48,440 bases of DNA, taken from NCBI GenBank assembly GCA_025355245.1, contig JANXZZ010000267.1, positions 1 to 48,440 on the forward strand, in the 5' to 3' direction. The notes under the pieces are model-generated. The model worked only from the letters and a program-made list of their open reading frames with translations, was not told the DNA's origin and searched no databases. Origin of the DNA: Pseudomonadota bacterium (GTDB lineage: Bacteria > Pseudomonadota > Gammaproteobacteria > Steroidobacterales > Steroidobacteraceae). A program made the position numbers and the translations under genes. Shown piece by piece: positions 15,419 to 28,785 of this stretch (position 1 is the stretch's first letter; each line of letters begins with the position of its first letter).

Positions 15419-18400
15419 TCAACGACCCTGCACCGCACCGAGCGCAGCAGCGCCGTGCGCCTTCAGGAGCGCATCGAACGCCGGCACGTCCGCGGCGACG
15501 ATACTCTGCCACCTCGTGACCTCGCGGCCGAGCTCGCCGTGCAGGTACTCGAACACCTGCCGCTGCGGCTCCGTGGGACCGAAGTCACCGAAGTCGAGAG
15601 TCCCTGCGAACGTGTCGTACTGCTCGTTCAGCATGTTCGGATAGCGCAGGTTGTCCTCGGATGCCGCCATCTTCACCTGCACGAGGCGCGCCTCAATCGG
15701 CGCGAGCTTCGCGACCAGCGCGACGGCAGCCTCGACGAGGGGCTTCGCCGGCGCGGAGGAACCGTGCCACTTGCCGATCAGCTCGAGGCGTGAGCGCACG
15801 TCGCGCAGCTGGTTCACCGTTCGGTGCAGTGTCTCGATGTCGGCCTCGGTCTTGAGCTCGAGCTCCGTCAGCGCGGCGAGCTCGCCGTCCGACACCTGCC
15901 CCTTGAGCCGAGGATCGAGCACGACGTCGAGCGGGGCGGTCTGGCTGGCGCCGCTCACGGTCAGTCGGACCTGGTAGTGACCCGGCGCCACGATCGGCCC
16001 GCGCGGTCCGTCGTCGCTGTAGAACGCGCCCGGAATCTTGACCGGGTCGTCGTAGCGGAAGTCCCACGCGAAGCGATTGGCGCCGGCCTCGTCGGGGATC
16101 TCGTCGGCGGGCTTCTCGCGGTCGGTCCACTCGGCCGGCTGCTCGAATTGATCCTTGGGCTTGTGGTTCGAGAAGTGCCGGATGAGCTTGCCGTCCGCGC
16201 TGAGGAAATCGAGCGTGATCTCCTCGTGTTCGGCGGGCTTCTTCGCCAGCACGTAGTCGATGACGGCACCGGGCGGCGGGTTGTCGCCGACCGGCAAGCG
16301 CCGCTCGACCTGCTGCGGAATGTGCAGGCGAATGGCGCTCGCCGGACGAAACAGGTGGAAGTCGCCCGTCGCAATGCCGTCGGCCGCCTGCCGCAGCGGC
16401 GACAGGTCGTCGAGGATCCAGAACGAGCGCCCGTGCGTCGCGGCGACGAGGTCGTTGTCCTTGATGGCGAGATCGTGTACCGGCACTGTCGGCAGATTCA
16501 GCTGCAGCGGTTGCCAGTGCGCGCCGTCGTCGACCGACACGTAGACGCCCAGCTCGGTGCCCGCGTAAAGGAGCCCCTTGCGCGTCGGATCCTCGCGCAC
16601 CGCGCGCACGTAGGCGCCGTCCGGGATGCCGGTCACGATGCGCGTCCACGTCTTGCCCGAATCGTGGGTCCGGTAGATGAGCGGCTTCACGTCATCAAGC
16701 TTGTGACGATCGATGGCCGCGTAGGCGGAGGCGGCATCGTGAGGCGAAGCCTCGATCAGGCTCACCATGCTCCACGCCGGCATGTCCTTCGGCGTCACGT
16801 TGTCCCAGTGGCCACCGTCATCGTGCGTTAAATGGATGAGGCCATCGTCGGTTCCCGCCCACAGCAGCCCCTGCTGCTTCGGCGACTCGGCAAGCGTGAA
16901 CACGGTGTCGTAGTACTCGACCGCCGTGATGTCGAGCGTGATCGGGCCGCCGGAGGGCGCCTGCTTGCTCTTGTCGTTCTTCGTGAGGTCCGGGCTGATG
17001 CGCTTCCAGCTCTTGCCCTGATCGATGCTGCGCAGCACAAACTGCGCGGCCGTGTACAGCACGTTCGAATCGTGGTGCGACACGAACAGGGGCTCGGTCC
17101 ATTGCAGGCGGTACTCGAGGTGCTCGGCACCGTTGCCGGAAACGTCGAGCGGATAGACCGACACGTCCCGGAAGTTGTTGGTGCGGTGGTCGTAGCGGGT
17201 CATCTGGCCGCTGTCGGAGTTCGCGTAGATGATCTCCGGATCCTTGGGATCGGGCGCAATGTAGCCGCTCTCGCCGCCGCCGACCGGAAACCAGGCCTGG
17301 CGGCCGATCACGCCGTCGTCGTCGCGGCTCGCGATGCCGATCGTCGAGTTGTCCTGCTGGGCACCGTACACCCGGTACGGCCAGTGGTTGTCGACGGCGA
17401 CGTGGTAGAACTGCGCCGTCGGCTGGTTGTAGGGCGCCGTCCACGCCTTGCCGCCGTCCATCGAGATGCTGGCGCCGCCATCGCTGCCGTTGATCAGGCG
17501 CTTCGGATTCCTAGGGTCGATCCACAGCGCATGGTGGTCGCCGTGCGGCGCCGGCATCAGCTCGAATGACTTGCCACCGTCGGCGGAGCGGAACGCGCCC
17601 GTGTTCATGATGTAGACGACGTCCGGCGAGACTGGGTCGGCGAACACGTGGCTGTAGTACCAGGCGCGCTGCCGGAAGCGGTGGTCGGAGTTGACCCGCG
17701 ACCAGGAGCCACCACCGTCGTCCGAGCGAAACAGGCCGCCTTCCTCCGCCTCGATCATCGCGTAGACGCGCCCGGAGCCGCCGCCGGCAACCGAGACACC
17801 GATGCGACCGAGGATCCCCGCCGGCAAGCCGTGGCCCTCGAGGTGCGTCCAGGTGAGTCCCGCGTCGGTCGACCGGTAGAGGCCGGAGCCGGGGCCGCCG
17901 CTCGAGAAGTACCAGGGCTGGCGCCGCATCTGCCAGAGCGATGCGTACACGACGTTCGGATTGTCCGGATCGAAGACGACGTCGATGGCGCCCGTGTCGC
18001 GATCCTTGAACAGGACCCGGCTCCAGGTGCGGCCGCCGTCCGCCGTGCGGAACACGCCGCGCTCGTCGTTGGGGCCGAAGGCGTGGCCGAGTGCCGCGAC
18101 GAGCGCGATGTCCGGGTTCTTCGGATGGACGATGACCGCGCCGATGTGGCGAGTGTCCTTGAGGCCGACGTTCGTCCAGGTACGGCCCGCATCGACCGAC
18201 TTGTAGACGCCGTCACCGTAGGTGATGTTGCCGCGCGTGCAGGCTTCGCCCGTGCCGACGTAGAGGACGTTGTGGTCGGAGTCCGCGACCGCGATCGCGC
18301 CGATCGAGGCGATCTTCTGTCCGTCGAAGACCGGCTTCCAGAGGTTGCCGGCGTCGGTGCTCTTCCAGACGCCGCCCGCGACGCCACCGAAGTACCAGGT

Positions 18401-18574
18401 CGCCGCGTCGCCGGGGACGCCGCTCACCGCGATCACGCGTCCGCCGCGGAACGGGCCGATCTGCCGCCATTTCATGCCCCCGAGCAGGGCAGGATTCACT
18501 TCGGCGAGCGCCGGGGTGACGCCGAGGAGCACGAGCGGCAGCAGCAGCGCGAACAGTCGGCTACGGGAAATCAT
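15419..18574 (-). CDS. Large secreted BNR/Asp-box (sortilin-VPS10-like) beta-propeller protein
   Basis: 1051 residues. ATG 18574 gives a clean signal peptide, MISRSRLFALLLPLVLLGV...ALA; an upstream in-frame start at 18655 would bury it. The mature protein begins with MKWRQIGPFRGGRV. It carries many Asp-box repeats of the form S-x-D-x-G-x-T-W (for example SVDAGRTWTNV, TADGGRTWSRV, SVDDGAHWQPL), forming one or two propellers over residues of about 30-720. A beta-sandwich-like segment and a helical C-terminal region follow. Such proteins are annotated as exo-alpha-sialidase/glycosyl hydrolase-like, but the catalytic activity is unproven. It converges on the DUF3830 gene. Confidence 0.88.
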   Translation of the reverse strand: MISRSRLFALLLPLVLLGVTPALAEVNPALLGGMKWRQIGPFRGGRVIAVSGVPGDAATWYFGGVAGGVWKSTDAGNLWKPVFDGQKIASIGAIAVADSDHNVLYVGTGEACTRGNITYGDGVYKSVDAGRTWTNVGLKDTRHIGAVIVHPKNPDIALVAALGHAFGPNDERGVFRTADGGRTWSRVLFKDRDTGAIDVVFDPDNPNVVYASLWQMRRQPWYFSSGGPGSGLYRSTDAGLTWTHLEGHGLPAGILGRIGVSVAGGGSGRVYAMIEAEEGGLFRSDDGGGSWSRVNSDHRFRQRAWYYSHVFADPVSPDVVYIMNTGAFRSADGGKSFELMPAPHGDHHALWIDPRNPKRLINGSDGGASISMDGGKAWTAPYNQPTAQFYHVAVDNHWPYRVYGAQQDNSTIGIASRDDDGVIGRQAWFPVGGGESGYIAPDPKDPEIIYANSDSGQMTRYDHRTNNFRDVSVYPLDVSGNGAEHLEYRLQWTEPLFVSHHDSNVLYTAAQFVLRSIDQGKSWKRISPDLTKNDKSKQAPSGGPITLDITAVEYYDTVFTLAESPKQQGLLWAGTDDGLIHLTHDDGGHWDNVTPKDMPAWSMVSLIEASPHDAASAYAAIDRHKLDDVKPLIYRTHDSGKTWTRIVTGIPDGAYVRAVREDPTRKGLLYAGTELGVYVSVDDGAHWQPLQLNLPTVPVHDLAIKDNDLVAATHGRSFWILDDLSPLRQAADGIATGDFHLFRPASAIRLHIPQQVERRLPVGDNPPPGAVIDYVLAKKPAEHEEITLDFLSADGKLIRHFSNHKPKDQFEQPAEWTDREKPADEIPDEAGANRFAWDFRYDDPVKIPGAFYSDDGPRGPIVAPGHYQVRLTVSGASQTAPLDVVLDPRLKGQVSDGELAALTELELKTEADIETLHRTVNQLRDVRSRLELIGKWHGSSAPAKPLVEAAVALVAKLAPIEARLVQVKMAASEDNLRYPNMLNEQYDTFAGTLDFGDFGPTEPQRQVFEYLHGELGREVTRWQSIVAADVPAFDALLKAHGAAALGAVQGR

Positions 18575-18976
18575 AAGTCGCGTCCTTCGGGTGCCGGATT
18601 CGGAGACCGCGAAGTCTACGACAACCCGGGCAACATGCCACGGCACCCGAGCCAAGCTCCCGATGCGGCGAGGTACCGTGTTTGGGCGAGCCGAGGGCGC
18701 CGGGGAGCGTGCAGCGGAACTGCCGGAAAGCCCTAACGACGAACCTGCGTTGCGAGCCGGTCGATCGAACGGTTGCGATGCGCTGACGCGGGACGGCTCT
18801 GCCTGCGAGACGCCCGGATCGCGCCGCGGCGGCCCCGGATCTTCGCGATTCGACCGTCGGCCGACCCCGGAGCCACTGGGGCTTGGTTCGAGTCGCCCTC
18901 GTGTGCCAAAGTACCGCGGTCATCGATGAGACTGTGGGTCCGTAATTTCTAATGTTTCTCAAGGACTTACGATCGG
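18575..18976. other. About 400 bases without a recognisable gene
   Basis: Divergent intergenic region between the BNR protein and the ABC-importer operon. No frame resembles a known protein. The only clear signals are the -10-like TATACT just to its right and an A/T-richer patch at about 18940-18985. Confidence 0.5.
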
Positions 18977-18982
18977 TATACT
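18977..18982 (+). promoter_or_regulatory. Candidate -10 box TATACT of the ABC-importer operon
   Basis: TATACT (five of six to TATAAT) ends 54 bases before the start of the substrate-binding protein. It lies in the only A/T-rich patch of this intergenic region. The -35 is unclear. Confidence 0.35.
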
Positions 18983-19036
18983 CAGGCAAGCCCGCCGCGA
19001 CTCGCCAATGCCTTGAACCCTGCCGAACCGGTCGCC

Positions 19037-20083
19037 ATGATGCCTCGCCCTGACCCCCGTCACTTCCTCCGACGCCGGCTACTGCTTAAAGGTGTTCTCG
19101 GCGCGGCGCTGCCCGGGACCCTGCTGTCGTGCTCGTCGGAATCGAAGCACGCGGCGCTCGTCGTCGGTGGCCTGCCGGTTACCTGCAATTTGACGCTCCC
19201 GATCGCCTGCGTTGCGCGAGCCGCTGCCAACAACGCGGGCCCTGCCGCGGGCCCGCGCTTCGACTACGAGTACAGCAAGTACAACGGCTGGCCGGAGGTC
19301 AAGGAATCACTGATGACCGGACGAATCCAGGCCGCGTTCATGCTGGCGCCGCTCGTCATGGACCTGTCCGACCGCAAGATTCCGATCAAGATCGTCTCAC
19401 TCGGCCACCGCTCGGGCGCCGTGATCATGGTCCGCAGCGACTCCCCTTACGAGCACTTCCGCCAGCTCGAAGGGAAGCGAATCGCGATCCCGAGCCGTTT
19501 CGCCGTGGATTTTCTGTTTCTGAGGAAGATGCTGGCCCAAGAGGGCATGACGCCGGCCGACGTCACGATCGTGGAGATGGCGCCTCCCGACATGCCGGCG
19601 GCGCTCTATGCCAAAGCTGTCGACGCCTACTGTACGGGCGAGCCATTCGGAGCCGCCGCCCAGAGCGCCGGCTACGCGCGCACTCTGCGCATGACTCGCG
19701 ACGAATGGCGAAACTACATCTGTTGCGTGCTAACCGTGCGCGAGGAACTCATCCGGGACAACCGGCCTCTCGTTCAGGATCTCGTGAATCACGTGATGGG
19801 CGCCGGCGTCTGGCTTGATGCGGACAGGGAAAACCGCAAGAAGGCGGTCGCCATTGCCGCCGGGAAGAGGTTCTTCAACCAGGACCCCAACATCATCCAG
19901 TTCGTGATGGACCACCCGACCGATCGCGTGACCTATGGCGACCTGCGCATGATTCGCGGCGAATTCGACGAGCTCATGCAGCTGTCCGTCGAGGCCGGGA
20001 CCATCAAGCACCCGATCGCATTCGAGAGTTACGTGGATGAGAGCTTCGCGAAGGTCGCCAAGCCCGCTACTATCTTGCTCTGA
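19037..20083 (+). CDS. ABC importer substrate-binding lipoprotein, NrtA/TauA-like
   Basis: About 348 residues. ATG 19037 (or 19040) gives a twin-arginine-like signal FLRRRLLLKGVLG ending in a lipobox LLSC (Cys32), so the protein is probably exported folded and lipid-anchored. The body is of the NMT1/NrtA class: GWPEVKESLMTGRIQAAFM, LEGKRIAIPSRFAVDFLFLR, AVDAYCTGEPFGAAAQ and NYICCVLTVREE. Relatives bind nitrate, bicarbonate, taurine, sulfonates or pyrimidine precursors. It opens a co-directional set with SCO1, cupredoxin, permease and ATPase genes, and the next gene follows after 14 bases. The ligand is unknown. Confidence 0.88.
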   Translation: MMPRPDPRHFLRRRLLLKGVLGAALPGTLLSCSSESKHAALVVGGLPVTCNLTLPIACVARAAANNAGPAAGPRFDYEYSKYNGWPEVKESLMTGRIQAAFMLAPLVMDLSDRKIPIKIVSLGHRSGAVIMVRSDSPYEHFRQLEGKRIAIPSRFAVDFLFLRKMLAQEGMTPADVTIVEMAPPDMPAALYAKAVDAYCTGEPFGAAAQSAGYARTLRMTRDEWRNYICCVLTVREELIRDNRPLVQDLVNHVMGAGVWLDADRENRKKAVAIAAGKRFFNQDPNIIQFVMDHPTDRVTYGDLRMIRGEFDELMQLSVEAGTIKHPIAFESYVDESFAKVAKPATILL

Positions 20084-20097
20084 CCGGGGAGCCGATC

Positions 20098-20679
20098 GTG
20101 CTTCGTCCACTCGTGCTTTCGATATCGCTGCTTCTCTCAGGAAGCCTGAGCGCGGCTTCGCAAAGCACGGACCTCATCGCCGGCGTATTCGAACCGGCAC
20201 GGCTTGCACCCGACTTCTCCCTGCGCGGATCGGACGGCGCCGAACTCAAGCTAAGCCACTATCGCGGCAAGGTCGTCCTGCTGGCATTCGGCTACACGTC
20301 CTGCACCGAGGTCTGTCCGATAACGCTCGCGGTGCTGGCGGCGGCGCGCAAGAAGCTCGGGCCCAGTGCTGATGGAATGCAGGTCGTTTACGTCACCGTC
20401 GATCCCAAACGGGATACGGTGGAGCGCATGCGGACCTACATGTCGGCCTTCGATCCGAGCTTTGTCGGCGGTACGGGCACCGCGACGGAGCTGGCTGCCG
20501 TGCGCACGAACTACGGGATATCGGTCAGCAAGGAAATGCCGTTTCCGGGTGGCTACGCGCTCAGTCATTCCTCGTACATCTACCTTGTCGATCGGCACGG
20601 GGCGCTGCGCGCCCTGATGCCGTACGGGCACAGCGCGGATGATTTCGCGCACGACGTGCGCATCCTGCTAAACCAGTAG
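20098..20679 (+). CDS. SCO1/SenC-family thioredoxin-fold copper protein
   Basis: 193 residues from GTG 20098, with a signal peptide (MLRPLVLSISLLLSGSLSAA). Copper ligands of the family are all present: Cys69 and Cys73 in GYTSCTEVCP and His157 in YALSHSSY, plus the VTVDPKRDT segment. SCO proteins deliver copper to the CuA site of cytochrome oxidase or act as periplasmic thiol-redox proteins. Here no oxidase gene is nearby; the gene lies between an ABC substrate-binding protein and a cupredoxin. A role in loading that cupredoxin is a reasonable inference. Confidence 0.93.
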   Translation: MLRPLVLSISLLLSGSLSAASQSTDLIAGVFEPARLAPDFSLRGSDGAELKLSHYRGKVVLLAFGYTSCTEVCPITLAVLAAARKKLGPSADGMQVVYVTVDPKRDTVERMRTYMSAFDPSFVGGTGTATELAAVRTNYGISVSKEMPFPGGYALSHSSYIYLVDRHGALRALMPYGHSADDFAHDVRILLNQ

Positions 20680-20686
20680 GTGTCCA

Positions 20687-21142
20687 TTGCGTTCCCGGCA
20701 ATCGGGCCTGCTGGCCGCACGATGCATTCGTTGGGCAGGCACTGTGCTCGCGGTCGGCGCCGCCGCCGTGACCCTGTGGGCGGCGTTCGCGCCGATCCGG
20801 TCGGCGTCGCGGGACGTGGTTTTCGAGATTCCGCGGGGTACGTGGGCGCGCCGGATGGCGGGGAACAAGCTCGAGATCCTGCCGTCGCAGATCCGCCTCA
20901 CGCTCGGACTCAGCGACATCCTGGTGCTCCGGAACCAGGACGACGTGCCACAGGTGTTCGGACCGACGCTGATGATGCCGGGGCAGAGTTTTCGGTTACC
21001 CTTCGCGGTCGCCTCGGAATATCAGTTCGCGTGCACGGCACACGCGAGCGGGCAGATGACGGTGATCGTTGACCCGCGGCCGGAAACCGCGTGGACGAGA
21101 TTGATATGGCGCCTAAGAGCGGCCAAGGAGCACATCGGGTGA
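20687..21142 (+). CDS. Membrane-anchored cupredoxin-like protein
   Basis: 151 residues from TTG 20687, seven bases after the SCO stop with GTAGGTG upstream. One N-terminal helix (about 15-35) anchors it with the domain in the periplasm. The cupredoxin end is clear: QFACTAHASGQMTVIV gives Cys116, His119 and Met124 of a type-1 copper loop. The upstream position that usually supplies the first His reads NQDDVPQVFG, with Gln89. The site may therefore be altered or copper-free. Its stop overlaps the permease start as GTGA. Resembles the periplasmic domain of oxidase subunit II only in fold. Confidence 0.75.
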   Translation: MRSRQSGLLAARCIRWAGTVLAVGAAAVTLWAAFAPIRSASRDVVFEIPRGTWARRMAGNKLEILPSQIRLTLGLSDILVLRNQDDVPQVFGPTLMMPGQSFRLPFAVASEYQFACTAHASGQMTVIVDPRPETAWTRLIWRLRAAKEHIG

Positions 21143-21918
21143 CGACGAGACGCGCGACCGGGTCGATCCTGCGGCAAGTGGTGCCGGCTGTGATCGTAAT
21201 TCTCACGCTGGTTGCGGTCTGGTGGCTGCTGGTCGTGGTTACGAACAGCGTGATATTCCCGACGCCGTGGCAGGTCGTGACGGGCACCGTGGAACTCGCC
21301 GAAGATGGCACGCTCTGGTCGGATATCGCGGCCTCGCTGATGCGCGTGGGCGTCGGCTTCGGCCTGGCGGTCGCGGTGGCGGTACCGCTCGGACTCTGGA
21401 TGGGGTGGGTGAAAGGCGCGTTCACGACGTTCAACCCGATCTTCCAGATGCTTAGGCCTATTTCCCCGATCGCGTGGATTCCGATCGCGATCCTCTGGTT
21501 CGGCGTCGGCGATGCCTCGCCGATATTCCTTATCTTCATGGCGTCAGTGTTCCCGATGGTCGTGCAGACGACCGCTGGCGTGCATACGATCGAGCGGCGC
21601 TATCTGCGCGCGGCCGCGAACTTCGGCGTCTCGCGCGCGACCTTGTTCCGCCGGGTCGTCATTCCGGCGGTCTTGCCGCAGATCATCGTCGGCATGCGGA
21701 TTGGCCTGGGTGTCGCGTGGCTCGTGGTGGTGGCGGCCGAGATGATCGCGCTGCGCTCGGGACTCGGGTATCTGATCATCGACTCCCGGAACGCCGGCAA
21801 CCGCTACGACCTCGTCATCGGCGGGATGGTGATCATCGGCCTGATCGGTCTTGCCCTGGACGGCGCGATGCGGCTCCTCGAGGGACTGCGAATGGTCCGG
21901 TGGCGCTATGCCCGCTAA
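21139..21918 (+). CDS. ABC transporter permease, NitT/TauT type
   Basis: 259 residues from GTG 21139, which overlaps the cupredoxin stop (GTGA). An upstream in-frame ATG at 21091 would overlap that gene by 52 bases and is less likely. About six helices, with the BPD_transp_1 EAA loop as YLRAAANFGVSRATLFRRVV. The motif SPIAWIPIAILWFGVGDASPIF is typical of SsuC/TauC/NrtB permeases. It forms the inner-membrane channel for the adjacent ATPase and binding lipoprotein. Confidence 0.93.
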   Translation: MTTRRATGSILRQVVPAVIVILTLVAVWWLLVVVTNSVIFPTPWQVVTGTVELAEDGTLWSDIAASLMRVGVGFGLAVAVAVPLGLWMGWVKGAFTTFNPIFQMLRPISPIAWIPIAILWFGVGDASPIFLIFMASVFPMVVQTTAGVHTIERRYLRAAANFGVSRATLFRRVVIPAVLPQIIVGMRIGLGVAWLVVVAAEMIALRSGLGYLIIDSRNAGNRYDLVIGGMVIIGLIGLALDGAMRLLEGLRMVRWRYAR

Positions 21919-22648
21919 AATCACAGTACGAGACCTCAAGAAGAGTTTCGACACAGACCAGGCACCTCTTCGCGTCGTCGACGGCGTGAGCTTCGAAGTT
22001 GCGGACGGAGAATTCGTCGCAATCGTCGGTCCTTCCGGTTGCGGCAAGACGACGCTGATGAACATTCTCGCGGGCTTCGATCCGCCCGACGAAGGGTACG
22101 TGTTAGTCGACGGCGCGCCGCGTCTTGGGCCGAACCCCAGGGGCGTACTGATCTCGCAACACGGCTCGGTGTTCCCGTGGCTGACGGTGCAGCAAAACCT
22201 GATGTTCGGCCTCAGCGGTCGCGACGTGCCGGACCGCGAGAAGCTCGCCGACCACTACGCCGCGATCGTCGGCTTGAATGGCTTCGAGCAGAGCTATCCC
22301 CACGAACTTTCGGGTGGCATGCTGAAGCGTGCGGAACTGGCGCGCGCGCTGGTCGTGAAGCCGGAGATTTTGTTCATGGACGAGCCGTTCTCCGCGCTCG
22401 ATGCGCTCACGAGTCTGCGCATGCGCAAGGAACTCCTGCGAATTCTGGTCGAGGAGCGTCACACGGTCGTGCTCATCACCCACGACGTGGAAGAGGCCAT
22501 CCACCTCGCCGATCGAATTTTCGTGTTGTCGGACCGGCCTACCAAGATTCGAGCGACGTTCGATGTCCCGGTCGCGCACCCGCGTAAGTTGTCGAGTGCG
22601 CCCTTGCAGGACCTCAAGGAAGCCATTCTTCGCGAGCTCGGTGTCTAG
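21908..22648 (+). CDS. ABC transporter ATP-binding protein, NitT/TauT type
   Basis: 246 residues from ATG 21908, overlapping the permease end by 11 bases. Walker A GPSGCGKTT (41-49), Q-loop ISQHGSVFPW, signature LSGGM (134-138; Met in place of the common Gln), Walker B ILFMDEP and switch His in LITHDVEEAIHLADR. It powers import with the permease and substrate-binding lipoprotein upstream. All catalytic motifs are intact. Confidence 0.94.
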   Translation: MPAKITVRDLKKSFDTDQAPLRVVDGVSFEVADGEFVAIVGPSGCGKTTLMNILAGFDPPDEGYVLVDGAPRLGPNPRGVLISQHGSVFPWLTVQQNLMFGLSGRDVPDREKLADHYAAIVGLNGFEQSYPHELSGGMLKRAELARALVVKPEILFMDEPFSALDALTSLRMRKELLRILVEERHTVVLITHDVEEAIHLADRIFVLSDRPTKIRATFDVPVAHPRKLSSAPLQDLKEAILRELGV

Positions 22649-22784
22649 TCGCAGGTCGCCAGATTCGCCGCGCGACCGGACGTCGTGGAGAGAAGCGCAC
22701 AGCGACCGCCGGTCGCTGCCCGATGTCTCCCCCACGGCCCACGGCAGGAACGCTTCGTATACCCAAACCGCGGCGGAGAGCACG

Positions 22785-24026
22785 ATGACTGCCACCGAAC
22801 ATCAACCTGGACGCTCCGCACCCGCGGTTGACTTGGAGGGCCTCGTCCGCCGCCATTCCGTGGGCCATGCACTCGCGCGTGAATTCTATTCGGATCCGCA
22901 GATCTTCGAGCACGACATGGATCGAGTCTTGCTCCGGCACTGGTTCTGCGCCGGGCACGCCAGCAGTCTGCCGACGCCGGGCGACTTCCTGGTCGTCGAG
23001 CTCGGTTCGGAATCGGTGATCATCGTTCGCACCCAGGACGAAACGATCAGGGCGCTCGTGAACGTGTGCCGACACCGCGGATCGCGCATCTGCACGACGC
23101 GGTCGGGGCGGGTGCCCGCCGGTCGCCTCACGTGTCCCTACCATGCGTGGTCATACGACCTGGATGGGCGGCTCAGGGTCGCCCGACAGATGCCCGAGTC
23201 GTTCGAGCACGATCGGGTCGGGTTGAGGTCACTCGCGGTGCGAGTCGTGGAAGGCCTGGTGTTCACGACGTTTGCCGAGCATCCGCTCGATTTCACGCCG
23301 GCGGAGCAAGCACTGTCGCGGGCCGCGCGCGTGCACGGCTGGGCCAAGGCCAAGGTTGTGCACCGCGAACTGTATTCGATCAAGGCCAACTGGAAGCTCG
23401 CCGTCGAGAACTACATGGAGTGCTATCACTGTCAGCCTGCTCACCCGGACTTCTCGAGACAGCACGTCTACGCGCGCCCGGCGCGGCAGGCCGAGGCTCT
23501 CGAGCGGGCGGGTCGGTGTCGGGCGGAAGCGCTTGGCATATTCTTGGCCGACGTCGACCTTTACGGTTGCGCCGCGAACCCCGGCAGCGAATCGGTATCC
23601 GTATTTCGCAGCGCCCTGCACGAAGGCGTCGCCAGCGCGACGCCCGACGGCAGGCCGATCGCACGGCTGATGGGCGACTTCTCCGATCATGACGGGAATT
23701 CGACTTACTTCGACATCGGCCCGCTCAGCGATTTTCTCGCGTATGCGGACCACGGCATCATCTATCGCTTCGTTCCCAGAGCCGCGCAGCACACGGAAAT
23801 GGAGGTGCTCTGGCTCGTGCACGAAGACGCCGTGGAGGGGACGGATTACGACGTTGAGCGACTGACGTGGCTCTGGAAGACCACCAGCATCCAGGACAAA
23901 AGGATCGTCGAGTTGAACCAGGCCGGGGTGAATTCGCGCTTCTTTGAACCGGGGCCCTATTCCCTGCAGGAAGCCTATGCGAGACGATTCGTCGATTGGT
24001 ATTTAAGCGAGATGGCGGCGGCGTGA
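22785..24026 (+). CDS. Rieske non-haem iron oxygenase, alpha subunit
   Basis: 413 residues. The Rieske [2Fe-2S] site is Cys95-x-His97 (CRHRGS) and Cys117-x2-His120 (CPYHAW). The mononuclear iron site is His215 and His220 in NYMECYHCQPAHPDF with Asp371 in SIQDKRIVE as third ligand. It is of the aromatic ring-hydroxylating/quaternary-amine (GbcA-, CntA-like) class and needs a separate reductase, not seen nearby. ATG 22785 is 136 bases after the ATPase stop on the same strand. The oxygenase could act on whatever the importer brings in; that link is inference. Confidence 0.9.
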   Translation: MTATEHQPGRSAPAVDLEGLVRRHSVGHALAREFYSDPQIFEHDMDRVLLRHWFCAGHASSLPTPGDFLVVELGSESVIIVRTQDETIRALVNVCRHRGSRICTTRSGRVPAGRLTCPYHAWSYDLDGRLRVARQMPESFEHDRVGLRSLAVRVVEGLVFTTFAEHPLDFTPAEQALSRAARVHGWAKAKVVHRELYSIKANWKLAVENYMECYHCQPAHPDFSRQHVYARPARQAEALERAGRCRAEALGIFLADVDLYGCAANPGSESVSVFRSALHEGVASATPDGRPIARLMGDFSDHDGNSTYFDIGPLSDFLAYADHGIIYRFVPRAAQHTEMEVLWLVHEDAVEGTDYDVERLTWLWKTTSIQDKRIVELNQAGVNSRFFEPGPYSLQEAYARRFVDWYLSEMAAA

Positions 24027-24044
24027 GGCAGACCAGCCGCTGGG

Positions 24045-24081
24045 TCCTCCGGGCGTTGTCGCGTTCGCCGTACCGGGAGGA
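24045..24081. terminator. Imperfect hairpin between convergent genes
   Basis: TCCTCCGGG (24045-24053) and CCGGGAGGA (24073-24081) can pair with one mismatch around a 19-base loop, between the convergent Rieske and adaptor genes. No T-run follows, so terminator function is doubtful. Confidence 0.25.
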
Positions 24082-24135
24082 CTCCTAGATGTACGGAGGC
24101 TGTTTAACCGGCGGCGCCGCGGACGGGTCAACAGT

Positions 24136-25080
24136 TCAGGACTGCCGGGGTTGGCCGGTTTCGCCTCGCTTCAGAAACTTGATCAGCACTCGCTGGCCGA
24201 TCAAGAACGGCGTGCCATCCGCCGAAACCACTACTTCGACGACCCGTTCGTCGGTCGCCTCGTTGCCACGATCGGATTTCAGTTTGCGCAGCCCGAATGT
24301 CGCCGCGATGCGCAGCACGCGTCCGGTCGCGATTTTCGCGGGATCGGCCTCCGGAATGATCTCCGCCACCTGACCGACGTAAACGCTGGACAGCGCGCTC
24401 TCAACGATCTCCGCACGGACGATGTGCGGGCTGGCCGGCTCCAGATCGAACATGTCGGACACGTTGAGAGTCGAAGCGCCGGCGCCGGGGTTGGCGTAGC
24501 GCCGGATGATCTTGCCGTCCATTGGGGCACGAATGATGGTCAAGTCCTCGCTGTACTCGGCTTGCGCCACCTGCGCGCGCGCAGTGCGAACGTTTGCCTG
24601 TTGGACTTCGAGTTGTGCTTGCGCCGTTGCGACGGCATCCCGCGCCTGATCGAGTTGCTGCTTGGGCACGAGGTTCGACGCCACGAGATTCTGCAACCGT
24701 TCCAGCTCGCGTCGGGTGGTCGCGATGTTGAGTTGGGTGAGCGCCAACTGGCTGTCGGATTGAGCCAGCGCGGCTTTGGCACTGCCGACGGCGAGCCTTG
24801 AGTCGTCGTCCTCTTGCCGGGCGAGGACTTGACCTTTGCGCACGACGTCGCCCTCCTGGACGACCACCTCCTTGATGATGCCGGGCCGACGCGCCGCGAC
24901 CTCGACGATGCCTCCTTCGACATCGACTTTGCCGTTGGCGATCGTGCTGTAGCGCGACGGCGGAACACGGGAATCGACCTTGTCGCTCGCCCCACCCTGG
25001 CTGCAACCCCCGAGGCCGAGCGTCAGCGACACGACGGCGGCCAGCAGTAGGGGTGACGCAACGACTGCGATGCGGCTCAT
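24136..25080 (-). CDS. HlyD/DevB-like periplasmic adaptor lipoprotein
   Basis: 314 residues with a lipoprotein signal ending LGLGGC (Cys26). Biotinyl-lipoyl half-motifs (GIIKEVVVQEGDVVRKGQVL; APMDGKIIRRYANPG) flank a long helical hairpin of about residues 100-180 rich in Gln/Ala/Leu, and a beta-barrel part contains VGQVAEIIPEADP. This is the membrane-fusion protein of a DevBCA/MacAB-type exporter. It is last in the operon and overlaps the ATPase stop (ATGA). An outer-membrane TolC partner is not in the window. Confidence 0.9.
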   Translation of the reverse strand: MSRIAVVASPLLLAAVVSLTLGLGGCSQGGASDKVDSRVPPSRYSTIANGKVDVEGGIVEVAARRPGIIKEVVVQEGDVVRKGQVLARQEDDDSRLAVGSAKAALAQSDSQLALTQLNIATTRRELERLQNLVASNLVPKQQLDQARDAVATAQAQLEVQQANVRTARAQVAQAEYSEDLTIIRAPMDGKIIRRYANPGAGASTLNVSDMFDLEPASPHIVRAEIVESALSSVYVGQVAEIIPEADPAKIATGRVLRIAATFGLRKLKSDRGNEATDERVVEVVVSADGTPFLIGQRVLIKFLKRGETGQPRQS

Positions 25081-25814
25081 ACGCGGCTCCCGTTGGCTCG
25101 CTGGGGGTCGAAGGCCGGAGGCGGGCCGATCATGCGATCGCTCAGAATCTTGCCGTCCTCCATCTGGATGATCCGGTCAGCGTGGGCTTCGAGGCGCGGA
25201 TCGTGCGTCACAACCACGATCGCGGCGCCACGCTCCTTCGCCGCCTGATGGAGCAGTTGGATCATGATTTGACCGTTGGCTGAGTCAAGCGCTGACGTCG
25301 GTTCGTCGGCAAAAACCAGCGACGGCGATTTCGCCAAAGCGCGCGCGATGGCGACACGTTGCTTTTCCCCACCTGAGAGTTCCGCTGGCTTTTGTAGCAG
25401 GCGTTCGCCGAGCCCGACGGACTTGAGGACCGCCGTCGCACGCGCGCGTGATTCGCGCCTGGCGACGCCGCAGTACTTCAGCACCTGTTCGACCTGCTCG
25501 GTCGCATTCAATGACGGGAACAGATTGAATCCCTGGAATATGAATCCGCAGTGGTCGAGCCTGAAGCGGTCGACCTCGCCGGCCCGCTTCGACCAGAGGT
25601 CCTCGCCGAGCGCAACCACCGCACCCTCGTCGGGTCTCATCAGGCCCGACAGCGCCGCGATCAGCGTCGATTTTCCGGAGCCCGACGGACCCATGATCAT
25701 AGTCACCTGACCGTGGTACGCGTTGAAGTCGATGTTCTTCAGAACCGTCTGCCGCGTCTTGCCAATCTTGTAGGCCTTGCTGAGGCCCCTGGCTTCGATG
25801 GCCAACCGACTCAC
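25077..25814 (-). CDS. ABC exporter ATP-binding protein, MacB/LolD/DevA type
   Basis: 245 residues from GTG 25814, which overlaps the permease stop (GTGA); much longer upstream open frame is antisense to nothing useful and inside the permease. Walker A GPSGSGKST, Q-loop FIFQGFNLFPSLNATEQ, signature LSGGEKQR, Walker B LVFADEPTSALD, switch His in VVTHDPR. The LSGGEKQRVAIARAL and NLFPSLNA segments are characteristic of the MacB/LolD branch that works with FtsX-type permeases. Drives export with its two neighbours. Confidence 0.93.
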   Translation of the reverse strand: MSRLAIEARGLSKAYKIGKTRQTVLKNIDFNAYHGQVTMIMGPSGSGKSTLIAALSGLMRPDEGAVVALGEDLWSKRAGEVDRFRLDHCGFIFQGFNLFPSLNATEQVEQVLKYCGVARRESRARATAVLKSVGLGERLLQKPAELSGGEKQRVAIARALAKSPSLVFADEPTSALDSANGQIMIQLLHQAAKERGAAIVVVTHDPRLEAHADRIIQMEDGKILSDRMIGPPPAFDPQRANGSRV

Positions 25815-26950
25815 CGCAGCAGATCCGCGGGTTGGCTCTTCTTCAGCACGCGCAGCGACAATACTCCCGACAGCAGCGCGACCAGAAGCAGCGTCACCGC
25901 GACCGGAATGTCGATGAATATCGGAAAGTCGAGCGGGACCCCGAAGGCTTTTGCGATCGACCAGACCGCGGCCGTGGACAACGCCGTGAGCACGAGCCCG
26001 GCGAGTCCGACCCACGCACTCAATTCCATGACCACGAGCCGCAGACTGTTCATCGAAACACCGAGCGCCCGCAGGCTCGCGAACTCCTTGATGTTGGCGA
26101 GCAGGGCTCCCTGCAAGGTTTGCCAGGTGATGACGATGCCGATGAAGCTGCCGATGACCACGGCAAAGCCGATGATCACGACGATTCCACCTTCTTTGAG
26201 CATCGACTTCTGGCTCGCGCTGGATAGCTCCTCGCGCGACCACGCTTTGTATTGGCCGTGACCCATGACGTTGAGTTCCGCGGCGACCCGCCTCGATTGC
26301 GTGGGATCCTTTATCTTAACGACCAGCGCGCCGACTCGCGGGCCGTCGTTGTACTGGTGCAGCAGCTTCGCGGTCTGCGGCGAGACGAACGTGATGGCAT
26401 TGAACATCGTCGGATAGCCGGACGTGACCCCGCGTACCCGGACGGAATAGCCGTTCATCTTGGCCTTGTCGCCGACTTGCACCCCGAGTTTGCCGAGGCT
26501 TGAGCGGTCGACTATGACTGCGAAGGGCTCCTGCAGGTCTTCGATGAGAGCATCCGTGAAGTCGCTCGGCAGCGTTACTGCGCCTTTGATGGGGTCGACG
26601 ATGACGAGCTGGACGCCGCTGTCCTTGGCCGGTTGGCCGTCGGTCGGGAAGTTTGACCACGAGACGAATCCAATGTTGAGTGGCTGGACTTCGACAACCG
26701 AGGGGTGCTCGTAGATCTCCGGAATGATACGGCGCGGCTGTCCCGCGCCCGTATCGAAGACACTGTCGGACTCGGGCGGCAACACCATGACGTCTGCGGG
26801 CGATCGATCGACGGTCGCCGTCCACGACTTGCTCATGCCCATAAACATGCCAGTCATGGCGAGGACGAGGAGGCCCGCCACCGCGAGCGCGATCACGGCG
26901 GCGAGGTAGCGCCGCCATTCGTAGAGCAGAGTGGAGAGGGCCAGTGACAT
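25811..26950 (-). CDS. FtsX/MacB-type ABC permease (DevC-like)
   Basis: 379 residues. An N-terminal helix (about 17-40, RRYLAAVIALAVAGLLVLAM) is followed by a large periplasmic domain (about 45-260). Three C-terminal helices are then seen around VVIIGFAVVIGSFIGIVITW, LSAWVGLAGLVLTALSTAA and IPVAVTLLLVALLSGVLSL. This four-helix layout is the type VII ABC (mechanotransmission) fold. The conserved cytoplasmic segment KEFASLRALGVS is present. It heads the three-gene operon permease-ATPase-adaptor. Substrate may be a lipid, glycolipid, peptide or drug. Confidence 0.92.
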   Translation of the reverse strand: MSLALSTLLYEWRRYLAAVIALAVAGLLVLAMTGMFMGMSKSWTATVDRSPADVMVLPPESDSVFDTGAGQPRRIIPEIYEHPSVVEVQPLNIGFVSWSNFPTDGQPAKDSGVQLVIVDPIKGAVTLPSDFTDALIEDLQEPFAVIVDRSSLGKLGVQVGDKAKMNGYSVRVRGVTSGYPTMFNAITFVSPQTAKLLHQYNDGPRVGALVVKIKDPTQSRRVAAELNVMGHGQYKAWSREELSSASQKSMLKEGGIVVIIGFAVVIGSFIGIVITWQTLQGALLANIKEFASLRALGVSMNSLRLVVMELSAWVGLAGLVLTALSTAAVWSIAKAFGVPLDFPIFIDIPVAVTLLLVALLSGVLSLRVLKKSQPADLLR

Positions 26951-27732
26951 ATGGCGGATCGGCGAACCTTGACTCAGCGTTTAAGCGTTAGGGCCGTTCG
27001 CAGGCATCTAGTTCCGGCGCGGACCGCGGCAAGCGGTAGAGCCGAGCGGGTCGACTGCTGCGGTCGCTTTGTCGGCGCCGCCGCAACGACTTGGGCGACG
27101 TGCGGACCGCCGCGCGCGAAGGAGAGCGGAGGATCTACCCGGCGGCCAAATCCGGCGCCGAACAAATTTAACATAACTATCAAGTAATCCATCTATTTAT
27201 CAATAGCTTACCTCACGTAACTGTGCGGTCAGGATTCTATTCGGTCTCCATCCACCGCTGCACGTTTCATAGCTCAGCTTGCACCGTTGACTCGCGTGAG
27301 TTCGGCTGTCGCGTGCAAACCGTTCCATCGATCCAGGCTCAGGGCGGCGGGTGAACCGCGCTGGCAGATCCATCCTTGACGCGGCCGACATCTTCTAACG
27401 GAGATCGCGATCCAGGGTACCGCCTCGCACCCAGAGCACCCAAGAATCCCATCATTCTTCGAGTCCGGTACGGCTTTCGGTCGCGCTCGCCTTTGCACAC
27501 GATTCTTTGATCGCGGGACGGCCCGGACGCCCCGCCGGTGGTGGGGGTGACGCTGGGAATAGATCGGCCGAGCCGGCGCTGCGGTGGGGCCCGCGGTACG
27601 CTCTGGCAGCGGGTGCCTCGATGGTGGCCAGTATGCGCTTGCCGAGGCGGACGATGCCCGCACGAGCATCGCGGGTGGATCGAGATGGCGAGAACTTGCC
27701 GTGCGCGCCGGTGGTGCAGAGAAAGAGGTCCG
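26951..27732. other. 782-base region without a recognisable gene; A/T-rich island inside
   Basis: No frame on either strand resembles a known protein. The stretch 27155-27250 is markedly A/T-rich compared with the window and lies upstream of the export operon (minus) and the cysteine synthase (plus), so it probably holds their promoters. On the minus strand a TTGATA occurs (27203-27198) but no -10 box sits at a normal distance. Confidence 0.5.
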
Positions 27733-28785
27733 ATGAACGTGAAATCGAACGACATACGCGATGGGGCGATCCCGGCGATCGGGAATACGCCGCTCATCCG
27801 GCTGCGACATCTGTCGGAAATCACCGGCTGCGAGATCCTGGCGAAGGCGGAGTTTATGAACCCGGGTGGCTCCGTCAAGGACCGCGCGGCGCTCTCGATC
27901 GTGTTGGACGCCGAGCGGCGGCAGCTGCTCCGGCCCGGAGGCACGATCGTCGAGGGCACCGCCGGCAACACCGGCATCGGACTTTCGGTCGTCGCCAACG
28001 CGCGCGGCTACCGAGTCGTCATCGTGATTCCCGATACGCAGTCGAAGGAGAAGAAGGACACGTTGAAACTCTTCGGTGCGACGCTTCACGAAGTGCCGGC
28101 GGTGCCTTACAAGAATCCGAATCAGTACGTGCACGTTGCCGAACGGCTGGCGGCGAGTCTCGCGCGTTCCGAACCGGGCGGCGCAATCTGGGCCCGGCAA
28201 TTCGACAACCTCGCCAATCGCGCGGGTCATTATTCGACCACTGGACCCGAGATCTGGTCGCAGACCGGCGGCACGATCGACGGCTTCGTCAGCGTGGTCG
28301 GCACCGGTGGCACGCTCTCCGGCGTTGCGATGGCCCTGCGGGAGCGCAAGCCCGGCATCAAGATTGCGCTCGCCGACCCGCCCGGCGCTGCGCTCTACAA
28401 CTACTACACGCGCGGCGAGCTCAGCAGTACCGGTTCGTCAATCACCGAGGGTATCGGCCAGGGCCGGATCACCGGCAACCTAGCGGATCTCGCCGTGGAT
28501 TTCGCCTACCAGGTTCCGGACGAGGAAACCGTGCAGGCAGTGTTCGACCTGCTGCAACACGAGGGACTCTGCGTCGGCGCGTCGACGGGCGTCAACCTGG
28601 TGGGGGCCGCGCGCCTTGCGCGCGAGCTCGGCCCCGGGCATACGATCGTCACGATGCTGACCGATTCGGGACTTCGCTATCAGTCGCGCCTGTTCAATCC
28701 CGACTTTCTGCGTTCGCGCAACCTGCCGGTGCCGCCGTGGCTGGCGCGTGAACCGGGAACGTTGCCCACCGGGACGCTCACCTGA
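27733..28785 (+). CDS. Cysteine synthase (O-acetylserine sulfhydrylase family, PLP)
   Basis: 350 residues from ATG 27733, preceded by AAAGAGG. PLP-binding Lys lies in NPGGSVKDRAAL; substrate loop EGTAGNTGIGLSVVA; phosphate-binding GTGGTLSGVA; and a late AGASTG-equivalent VGASTGVNLV. The C-terminal LRYQSRLFNPDFLRSRNL matches the longer CysK-like subgroup rather than compact CysM. Catalyses formation of cysteine from O-acetylserine and sulfide; related enzymes make other beta-substituted alanines. It stands alone. Confidence 0.9.
   Translation: MNVKSNDIRDGAIPAIGNTPLIRLRHLSEITGCEILAKAEFMNPGGSVKDRAALSIVLDAERRQLLRPGGTIVEGTAGNTGIGLSVVANARGYRVVIVIPDTQSKEKKDTLKLFGATLHEVPAVPYKNPNQYVHVAERLAASLARSEPGGAIWARQFDNLANRAGHYSTTGPEIWSQTGGTIDGFVSVVGTGGTLSGVAMALRERKPGIKIALADPPGAALYNYYTRGELSSTGSSITEGIGQGRITGNLADLAVDFAYQVPDEETVQAVFDLLQHEGLCVGASTGVNLVGAARLARELGPGHTIVTMLTDSGLRYQSRLFNPDFLRSRNLPVPPWLAREPGTLPTGTLT

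Follow-up and report, generated by a model that had tools for sequence, protein, structure and literature searches.

What does an importer of the ATP-binding cassette (ABC) type carry when its operon also encodes two proteins of copper families? This question is raised by a 48,440-nucleotide stretch of DNA (the window), contig C293 (JANXZZ010000267.1) in the 348-contig genome of a Pseudomonadota bacterium of the family Steroidobacteraceae (assembly GCA_025355245.1). Its forward strand contains five closely spaced genes (19037-22648) encoding a substrate-binding protein (SBP), an SCO protein, a cupredoxin, a permease and an ATPase, in that order. We found that these genes are one conserved, self-contained module. 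SCO proteins and Cys-His-Met cupredoxins are copper families. We propose, with a probability of about 0.43, that the module imports copper, or a small copper complex, by an ABC transporter equipped with a dedicated periplasmic relay. The five genes and the one that follows are:

19037-20083, forward strand: SBP; Pfam NMT1_2 (E 1.8e-29), NrtA-CmpA-SsuA superfamily; Arg-Arg pair in the signal region
20098-20679, forward strand: SCO1/SenC protein; Pfam SCO1-SenC (E 1.6e-37); GTG start; signal peptide seen by eye
20687-21142, forward strand: membrane-anchored cupredoxin; TTG start; helix at residues 3-34, then a beta barrel in the AlphaFold2 (AF2) model
21139-21918, forward strand: ABC permease; Pfam BPD_transp_1; start inside the GTGA overlap
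21908-22648, forward strand: ABC ATPase of the NitT/TauT type; Pfam ABC_tran; overlaps the permease gene by 11 bases
22785-24026, forward strand: Rieske oxygenase alpha subunit, GbcA-like; adjoins the module, outside it

Conservation of the five-gene module

An earlier note on this DNA had described an SCO1 protein and a membrane cupredoxin inserted between the binding protein and permease of a NitT/TauT-type importer, with all five genes joined by short gaps and overlaps. The Pfam matches, predicted fold and coordinates bear this out. The SBP and SCO genes are 14 bases apart and the SCO and cupredoxin genes 7. The cupredoxin and permease genes share the 4-base GTGA, and the permease and ATPase genes share 11 bases. 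An NMT1-type SBP, a BPD_transp_1 permease and an ABC ATPase in one operon identify an importer of the NitT/TauT (NrtA/SsuA) type, and the direction of transport is probably inward by analogy with this family. The SBP, permease and ATPase all score below every listed curated cut-off for members with a defined substrate (nitrate, taurine, sulfonate, Sao); for the ATPase, this comparison covers the 25 best of 192 models.

To determine how widely the arrangement occurs, 84,980 species, represented by a single genome each, were scanned with a 4-sequence SBP alignment. The scan gave 95 SBP relatives, and our counts use the best 80 of the 95 (69-82% identity). With the window they make up 81 loci; gene starts in the relatives were set by script. 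Room for the module, at least 2.9 kb beyond the SBP gene, exists in 70 of the 81. All five genes are present in the same order in 69 of these 70. The script itself counted 68/70 within 4.2 kb, and L075 was added after its cupredoxin start was reassigned. The sole exception, L032, is a contig of a metagenome-assembled genome (MAG); it contains a gap of 2 kb, and the reading frame of its SCO gene is broken. Carriers are found in Massilia, Duganella, Rugamonas, Roseateles/Pelomonas, Rhizobacter, Steroidobacter, Cellvibrio, Panacagrimonas and others, and many are MAGs. Among 60 relatives including the source genome, an SBP of at least 75% identity is present in four (G000, G003, G023 and G024), and G003, G023 and G024 have all five genes in order. 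Beyond the five, the most widespread flanking cluster of sense-looking genes covers 16 of the 83 loci clustered. Because no flanking family is general, the cassette stands alone.

As an independent sample we used the 62 genomes of the genus to which L098 (Massilia phyllostachyos) belongs. The SBP is present in 25 of them. Every one of the 25 carriers has an SCO match at a distance of 96-159 bases from that of the SBP, and a close cupredoxin 69-100 bases from this SCO. All 62 genomes also have an SCO outside the module, so the module SCO is an extra copy. The cupredoxin was found at E 1e-5 in the source genome only among 369 genomes of the class. A plasmid search with the cupredoxin gave no match, nor did a search of viral contigs.

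The idea in the earlier note was to fall if SCO and cupredoxin were not kept beside the importer in related genomes, and the opposite is observed. The order of the five genes at 69 of 70 loci and the adjacency of SCO and cupredoxin to the SBP in 25 of 25 Massilia carriers argue for copper as the cargo. The module ends at 22648, not at 24026.

The Rieske gene

The earlier note had extended the system to the Rieske gene, with import followed by later oxygenation. The gene does start 136 bases past the end of the ATPase gene, on the same strand. A terminator-like site was not found at 22648-22785, nor a sigma-70 promoter of the consensus type in 18660-24200; by themselves these two results are no evidence either way. 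Although the close spacing favors one pathway of import and oxygenation, no Rieske match at E 1e-20 was found in the other 80 loci, of which 65 have at least 1.5 kb beyond the ATPase gene. Co-occurrence, as tested in related genomes, is therefore 0/65. At E 1e-5 no match was found in L022-L024, the regions around G003, G023 and G024. Orthologues of the Rieske protein (70-80% identity) are present among the 60 relatives in G011, G016 and G019 only, all of which are operon-negative. Among the operon carriers, G023 has only a 42% paralogue, and a search at E 1e-60 gave no Rieske match in G003 or G024. In G011, which is of the same genus, the Rieske gene and an SBP remnant are located on separate contigs (C66 and C60). 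The best NCBIfam match of the Rieske protein is glycine betaine monooxygenase GbcA (NF058607), at 299.4 bits versus a cut-off of 670. The gene looks like an adjacent bystander outside the module, and a joint pathway is very improbable.

The SBP remnant in the operon-less G011 is a short N-terminal piece (L025:4095-4685). It shares a 9 kb stretch with a gene 89% identical to the PALP-family (cysteine-synthase-like) gene of the window (27538-28785, forward strand). The proximity of the two suggests that the operon was lost in place in G011.

Copper ligands in the SCO protein and the cupredoxin

The SCO protein scores 128.9 bits against the SCO1-SenC model (cut-off 22.8) and has both the CxxxC motif and the distal His. 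Cys69 and Cys73 of the motif are present in 79 of 79 sequences and His157 in 78 of 79. The protein also matches the AhpC-TSA and Redoxin models.

The cupredoxin has no Pfam or NCBIfam match up to E 0.01. Structure models of the SBP and the cupredoxin drew on 65 of 81 and 61 of 78 sequences, respectively. The AF2 model of the cupredoxin (predicted local distance difference test, pLDDT, 93.5) has a long N-terminal helix, a beta barrel with the cupredoxin fold and a short C-terminal helix. By fold it matches amicyanin, purple cupredoxin, CuA domains and the Cu(I) chaperone CupA. Cys116, His119 and Met97 are present in 78 of 78 sequences and Met124 in 75. The usual place of the first His is occupied by Gln89 in 77 of 78, and by His in L097 alone. 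The full type 1 His-Cys-His-Met set is thus incomplete: Cys, His and Met are present, with Gln for the first His. The Cys-x2-His-x4-Met spacing is one that we take to be that of a type 1 site. Since one His is missing, we expect a modified copper site, not a classic blue one. The retention of copper ligands in both proteins argues for copper as the cargo.

Putative cleft residues of the substrate-binding protein

Seven residues of the SBP are invariant in all 81 sequences: Cys50, Cys199, Cys229, Cys230, His124, Asp158 and Trp85. Cys58 is found in 79. The earlier note had called this protein a Tat-like lipoprotein. All 81 proteins have the Arg-Arg pair in the signal region, but only 25 of 81 have a lipobox-like Cys, so the second term fits the window's protein but is not apt for the family.

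Four invariant cysteines behind an Arg-Arg signal suggest export by the twin-arginine translocation (Tat) system and a need for protection from oxidation. Together with the AhpC-TSA and Redoxin matches of the SCO protein, they support the strongest rival explanation, that the importer serves a soft-metal-loving sulfur, cyanide or other small molecule, not copper. The SCO protein would then be a thiol reductase for the SBP cysteines, and the cupredoxin would handle electrons or stray copper. Solved members of the superfamily mostly bind small organic or inorganic ligands, judging by the structure titles, and the SAO-system transporters of the same family are tied to organometals in the available text on that system. 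In nine Duganella/Rugamonas loci, genes for methionine sulfoxide reductases and a thioredoxin-domain membrane protein are located directly upstream, on the same strand:

L082:3744-6860, and likewise in L076, L077, L079, L080, L085, L086, L088 and L093, cassette strand: MsrB, thioredoxin-domain membrane protein and MsrA; domains verified for L082 alone

However, this context is limited to one group of close relatives, and the neighbors in other groups are unrelated. A plain thiol reductase would not need a cupredoxin with conserved Cys-His-Met, and both basic residues that balance an anion in NrtA are lost, as described below. We consider a soft small molecule a possible cargo, though a doubtful one.

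The nearest solved relative of the SBP is 3un6, both by sequence (E 1.5e-30) and by fold (Foldseek rank 1, E 1.2e-26, TM 0.72/0.85). It is a binding protein of Staphylococcus aureus that was solved with zinc, which argues for a metal such as copper in the module SBP. NrtA was used as the reference for an anion-binding cleft. According to a review, its anion is balanced by K269 and H196, and CmpA employs a coordinated calcium for this (PMC8786288). In a phmmer alignment, Cys230 of the module SBP is opposite K240 of the 2g29 chain, and Asp158 is opposite H167. These two were taken as NrtA K269 and H196, because both numbers differ by 29. The basic residues expected of a nitrate-binding protein at these places are absent, and both anion-balancing residues of NrtA are predicted from this alignment to be lost in the module SBP. 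Their replacement by Cys230 and Asp158 is consistent with a copper cargo.

Distant SBP homologues gave 40 alignment rows, 32 of them covering the pocket. At the Asp158 place all 32 have His and none has Asp. Cys199 is present in 0 of the 32, Cys50 in 3 and His124 in 21. No SCO or cupredoxin gene was seen near these homologues, where the flanks searched were mostly about 1.5 kb. The presence of Asp158 in 81/81 module SBPs, versus 0/32 distant SBPs without SCO or cupredoxin nearby, further supports copper.

The zinc in 3un6 could also be taken to indicate that the cargo is another metal (zinc or nickel) or an organometal, and that copper handling is protective only. Clade B Ni-CODH gene clusters carry related transporters that were proposed as nickel importers in the text available (PMC6344411), and SAO has been named a Sec-assisted organometallic system (PMC13188914, in its available part). 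Yet the places of His46 and His149 in 3un6 are Cys50 and Asp158 in the module SBP, and the families of the two accessory proteins point to copper. We regard another metal as quite unlikely.

Cupredoxins in Massilia

The Massilia genomes also reveal what becomes of the cupredoxin apart from the transporter. The cupredoxin profile has at least one match in 60 of the 62 genomes. The close matches are those next to the 25 SBPs, together with those in G826 and G850; a more distant match is present in most genomes. In G880 (L222) all five genes are located between genes for a CHASE histidine kinase and a LON-domain protein. At this same site, G826 (L213:7692-9022) has a shortened SCO gene without CxxxC, an intact cupredoxin gene and pieces of the permease and ATPase genes, and in G850 (L214:7621-8127) the cupredoxin alone was found. 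Both cupredoxins keep Gln89, Met97, Cys116, His119 and Met124.

Lone cupredoxins of 34-44% identity are found at the CHASE kinase/LON-domain site in 8 other genomes (L215-L221 and L224), and our reading of their ligands covers these 8 copies only. His119, Met124 and Met97 are missing in 8/8, and Cys116 is kept in 7/8. The full ligand set accompanies the transporter genes, except in the decaying G826 and G850 copies. From these sequences we read that the operon was lost from the Massilia site and that the cupredoxin left behind then failed to keep its metal site. The lone copies are possibly decaying, or have a new role without copper. The absence of these residues from all eight argues for copper as the cargo.

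Relation to copper enzymes

SCO proteins normally serve oxidase assembly (PMC9240420, in its available part), and the NosFY ABC transporter and NosD are described as required for the CuZ center of nitrous oxide reductase in the accessible text of PMC7558416. These precedents suggest that the module may be a copper-delivery accessory for assembly of a copper enzyme of the periplasm or membrane; cbb3 oxidase, aa3 oxidase and nitrous oxide reductase are examples. In agreement with this, cbb3 oxidase (ccoN over its cut-off) is present in 23 of 25 Massilia carriers, compared with 21 of the 37 genomes that lack the operon (Fisher p 0.0037). However, the association has p 0.10 in a Pagel-type test with a tree of three linked proteins, and the trend is reversed in the relatives of the window, with 1/4 carriers versus 35/56 others. 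The cbb3 link was rejected on these two grounds.

The gene for nitrous oxide reductase, nosZ, was found in 6 of the 24 carriers given, out of 80 loci. Four of the 62 Massilia genomes contain it: one of the 25 carriers and three of the 37 others. This link was rejected as well. Another argument against a delivery accessory is that all 62 Massilia genomes have a non-module SCO. The earlier note had remarked that no oxidase is encoded here, and we likewise saw no gene for an oxidase next to the module in the window. Overall, we consider a delivery role unlikely.

A model for copper import

Our preferred reading remains import of copper. In the model, the SCO protein, thioredoxin-like with its CxxxC and His, and the Cys-His-Met cupredoxin would gather copper in the periplasm and hold it reduced. 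They may also keep the SBP cysteines reduced. The two proteins would then load a thiolate-rich SBP cleft, formed by Cys50, Cys199, Cys229/Cys230, His124 and Asp158 if these are as close to each other in the pocket as we suppose. The loaded SBP would dock on the permease, and the ATPase would drive Cu(I), or a small complex of copper, into the cell. The earlier note had offered copper or redox chemistry on an imported ligand, or import of a copper-binding molecule, and the conservation of SCO and cupredoxin with the importer fits these suggestions. Transporters with 3UN6-like SBPs of the NitT/TauT type have been proposed as metal importers in the text available (PMC6344411), which lends further support.

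Several observations weigh against the model. Cys199 has a counterpart in NrtA (C209 of the 2g29 chain), so that alone it is no mark of copper, and it is present in two of eight partial rows of the distant alignment (L016 and L020, NrtA-type). The Cys229-Cys230 pair is found in 24 of the 32 distant SBPs without SCO or cupredoxin nearby. Since neither this general pair nor Cys199, which NrtA also has, is distinctive, it is Asp158, and its combination with Cys50 and Cys199, that mark the clade linked to the copper proteins. No Cys of the permease is conserved at 90%. In L140 and L141, a CC-type SBP, permease and ATPase of a separate NitT/TauT subgroup are located beside genes that by eye encode an acyl-CoA dehydrogenase, OsmC and a rhodanese-like protein. 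Three of the lone Massilia cupredoxins (G821, G841 and G863) are in genomes with the operon elsewhere, and the lone cupredoxin could be an old paralogue and not a leftover. The case for copper is weakened by the Cys199 shared with NrtA and by lone cupredoxins that lie in carriers or may be paralogues. No report of binding or uptake was found for any module member. Simple patterns of copper regulators upstream gave nothing above control, and no link to a copper enzyme was found for nosZ or cbb3, the two tested.

A related observation concerns distant SBP homologues with the CC pair in L137 (2327-3916), L138 and L139, for which no permease or ATPase match was found nearby. By eye, the neighbors in L137 resemble chemotaxis receptors, hinting that the SBP may serve as a sensor protein.

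More tentatively, the module may represent a new class of ABC importer for copper. In this class the SBP cleft would have become a Cys/Asp/His site, served by a relay of SCO and a Gln-variant cupredoxin, and the five-gene cassette would extend across Burkholderiales and other Gammaproteobacteria. A description of this gene set was not found in the literature covered, most subscription journals being outside that coverage. Entry of copper through the bacterial inner membrane has been analyzed in few cases only, according to the available text of PMC7558416. With specific candidate ligands identified in a self-contained set of five genes, bacterial copper import can be put to a direct test. If the model is correct, it bears on 3UN6-like SBPs found beside metalloenzyme systems, and SCO may have a role outside oxidase assembly.

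Comparison with known systems

The NrtABCD/CmpABCD and SsuABC/TauABC systems have the same NitT/TauT SBP, permease and ATPase as the module, and NrtA shares Cys199. They differ in that the module has inserted SCO and cupredoxin genes, and Cys230 and Asp158 where NrtA has K269 and H196.

The SBP in 3UN6, the nearest solved one, has Trp75, His114 and the Cys220-Cys221 pair in common with the module SBP. It differs at His46, His149 and Ser190, where the module SBP has Cys50, Asp158 and Cys199. Transporters with 3UN6-like SBPs are encoded beside clade B Ni-CODH genes in the part of PMC6344411 available.

The SAO system (SaoX, SaoP and SaoA in NCBIfam) belongs to the same transporter family and gives the best NCBIfam matches of the module permease and ATPase. 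The module SBP, permease and ATPase fall far below the equivalog cut-offs of the three, with 43.5 of 300, 183.5 of 295 and 196.6 of 360 bits. SAO also includes a thioredoxin-like protein, SaoT, in the available description.

CupA of Streptococcus pneumoniae is a membrane-anchored Cu(I) chaperone that serves copper export. It has the cupredoxin fold in common with the module cupredoxin (4f2e, E 7.4e-4). Unlike CupA, the module protein is partnered with an ABC importer and has the motif Cys-x2-His-x4-Met.

A Haloferax operon has a cupredoxin-domain gene beside SCO, like the module, as well as thioredoxin and cytochrome c biogenesis genes; ABC transporter genes are not listed in the part of that report available (PMC11218638). 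CcoA with SCO/SenC delivery resembles the module in the proposed copper entry followed by SCO-type handling. CcoA is a copper importer of the major facilitator superfamily (MFS), not of the ABC type (PMC7558416). The same text, as far as available, mentions ABC transporters as copper exporters and for NosZ assembly, but not as importers.

Upstream and flanking regions

Comparison of 80 upstream regions revealed no general promoter motif; a palindrome was found mostly in one group. A search for riboswitches and other RNA in 6 of the 80 loci gave one tRNA only. The near-palindrome, TGTAGTACAATTACAG, lies 42-70 bases before the start of the SBP gene and is conserved in L076, L077, L079, L080, L082, L085, L086, L088, L093 and L100. 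Looser forms are present in L078, L090 and L091. It is a possible operator for a regulator of the module.

Beyond the module and the Rieske gene, the window has genes on the reverse strand on both sides. A large sortilin/BNR-repeat protein is encoded at 15419-18574, and an HlyD/ABC/MacB-FtsX efflux set, in which the ABC ATPase was recognized by eye, at 24136-26950.

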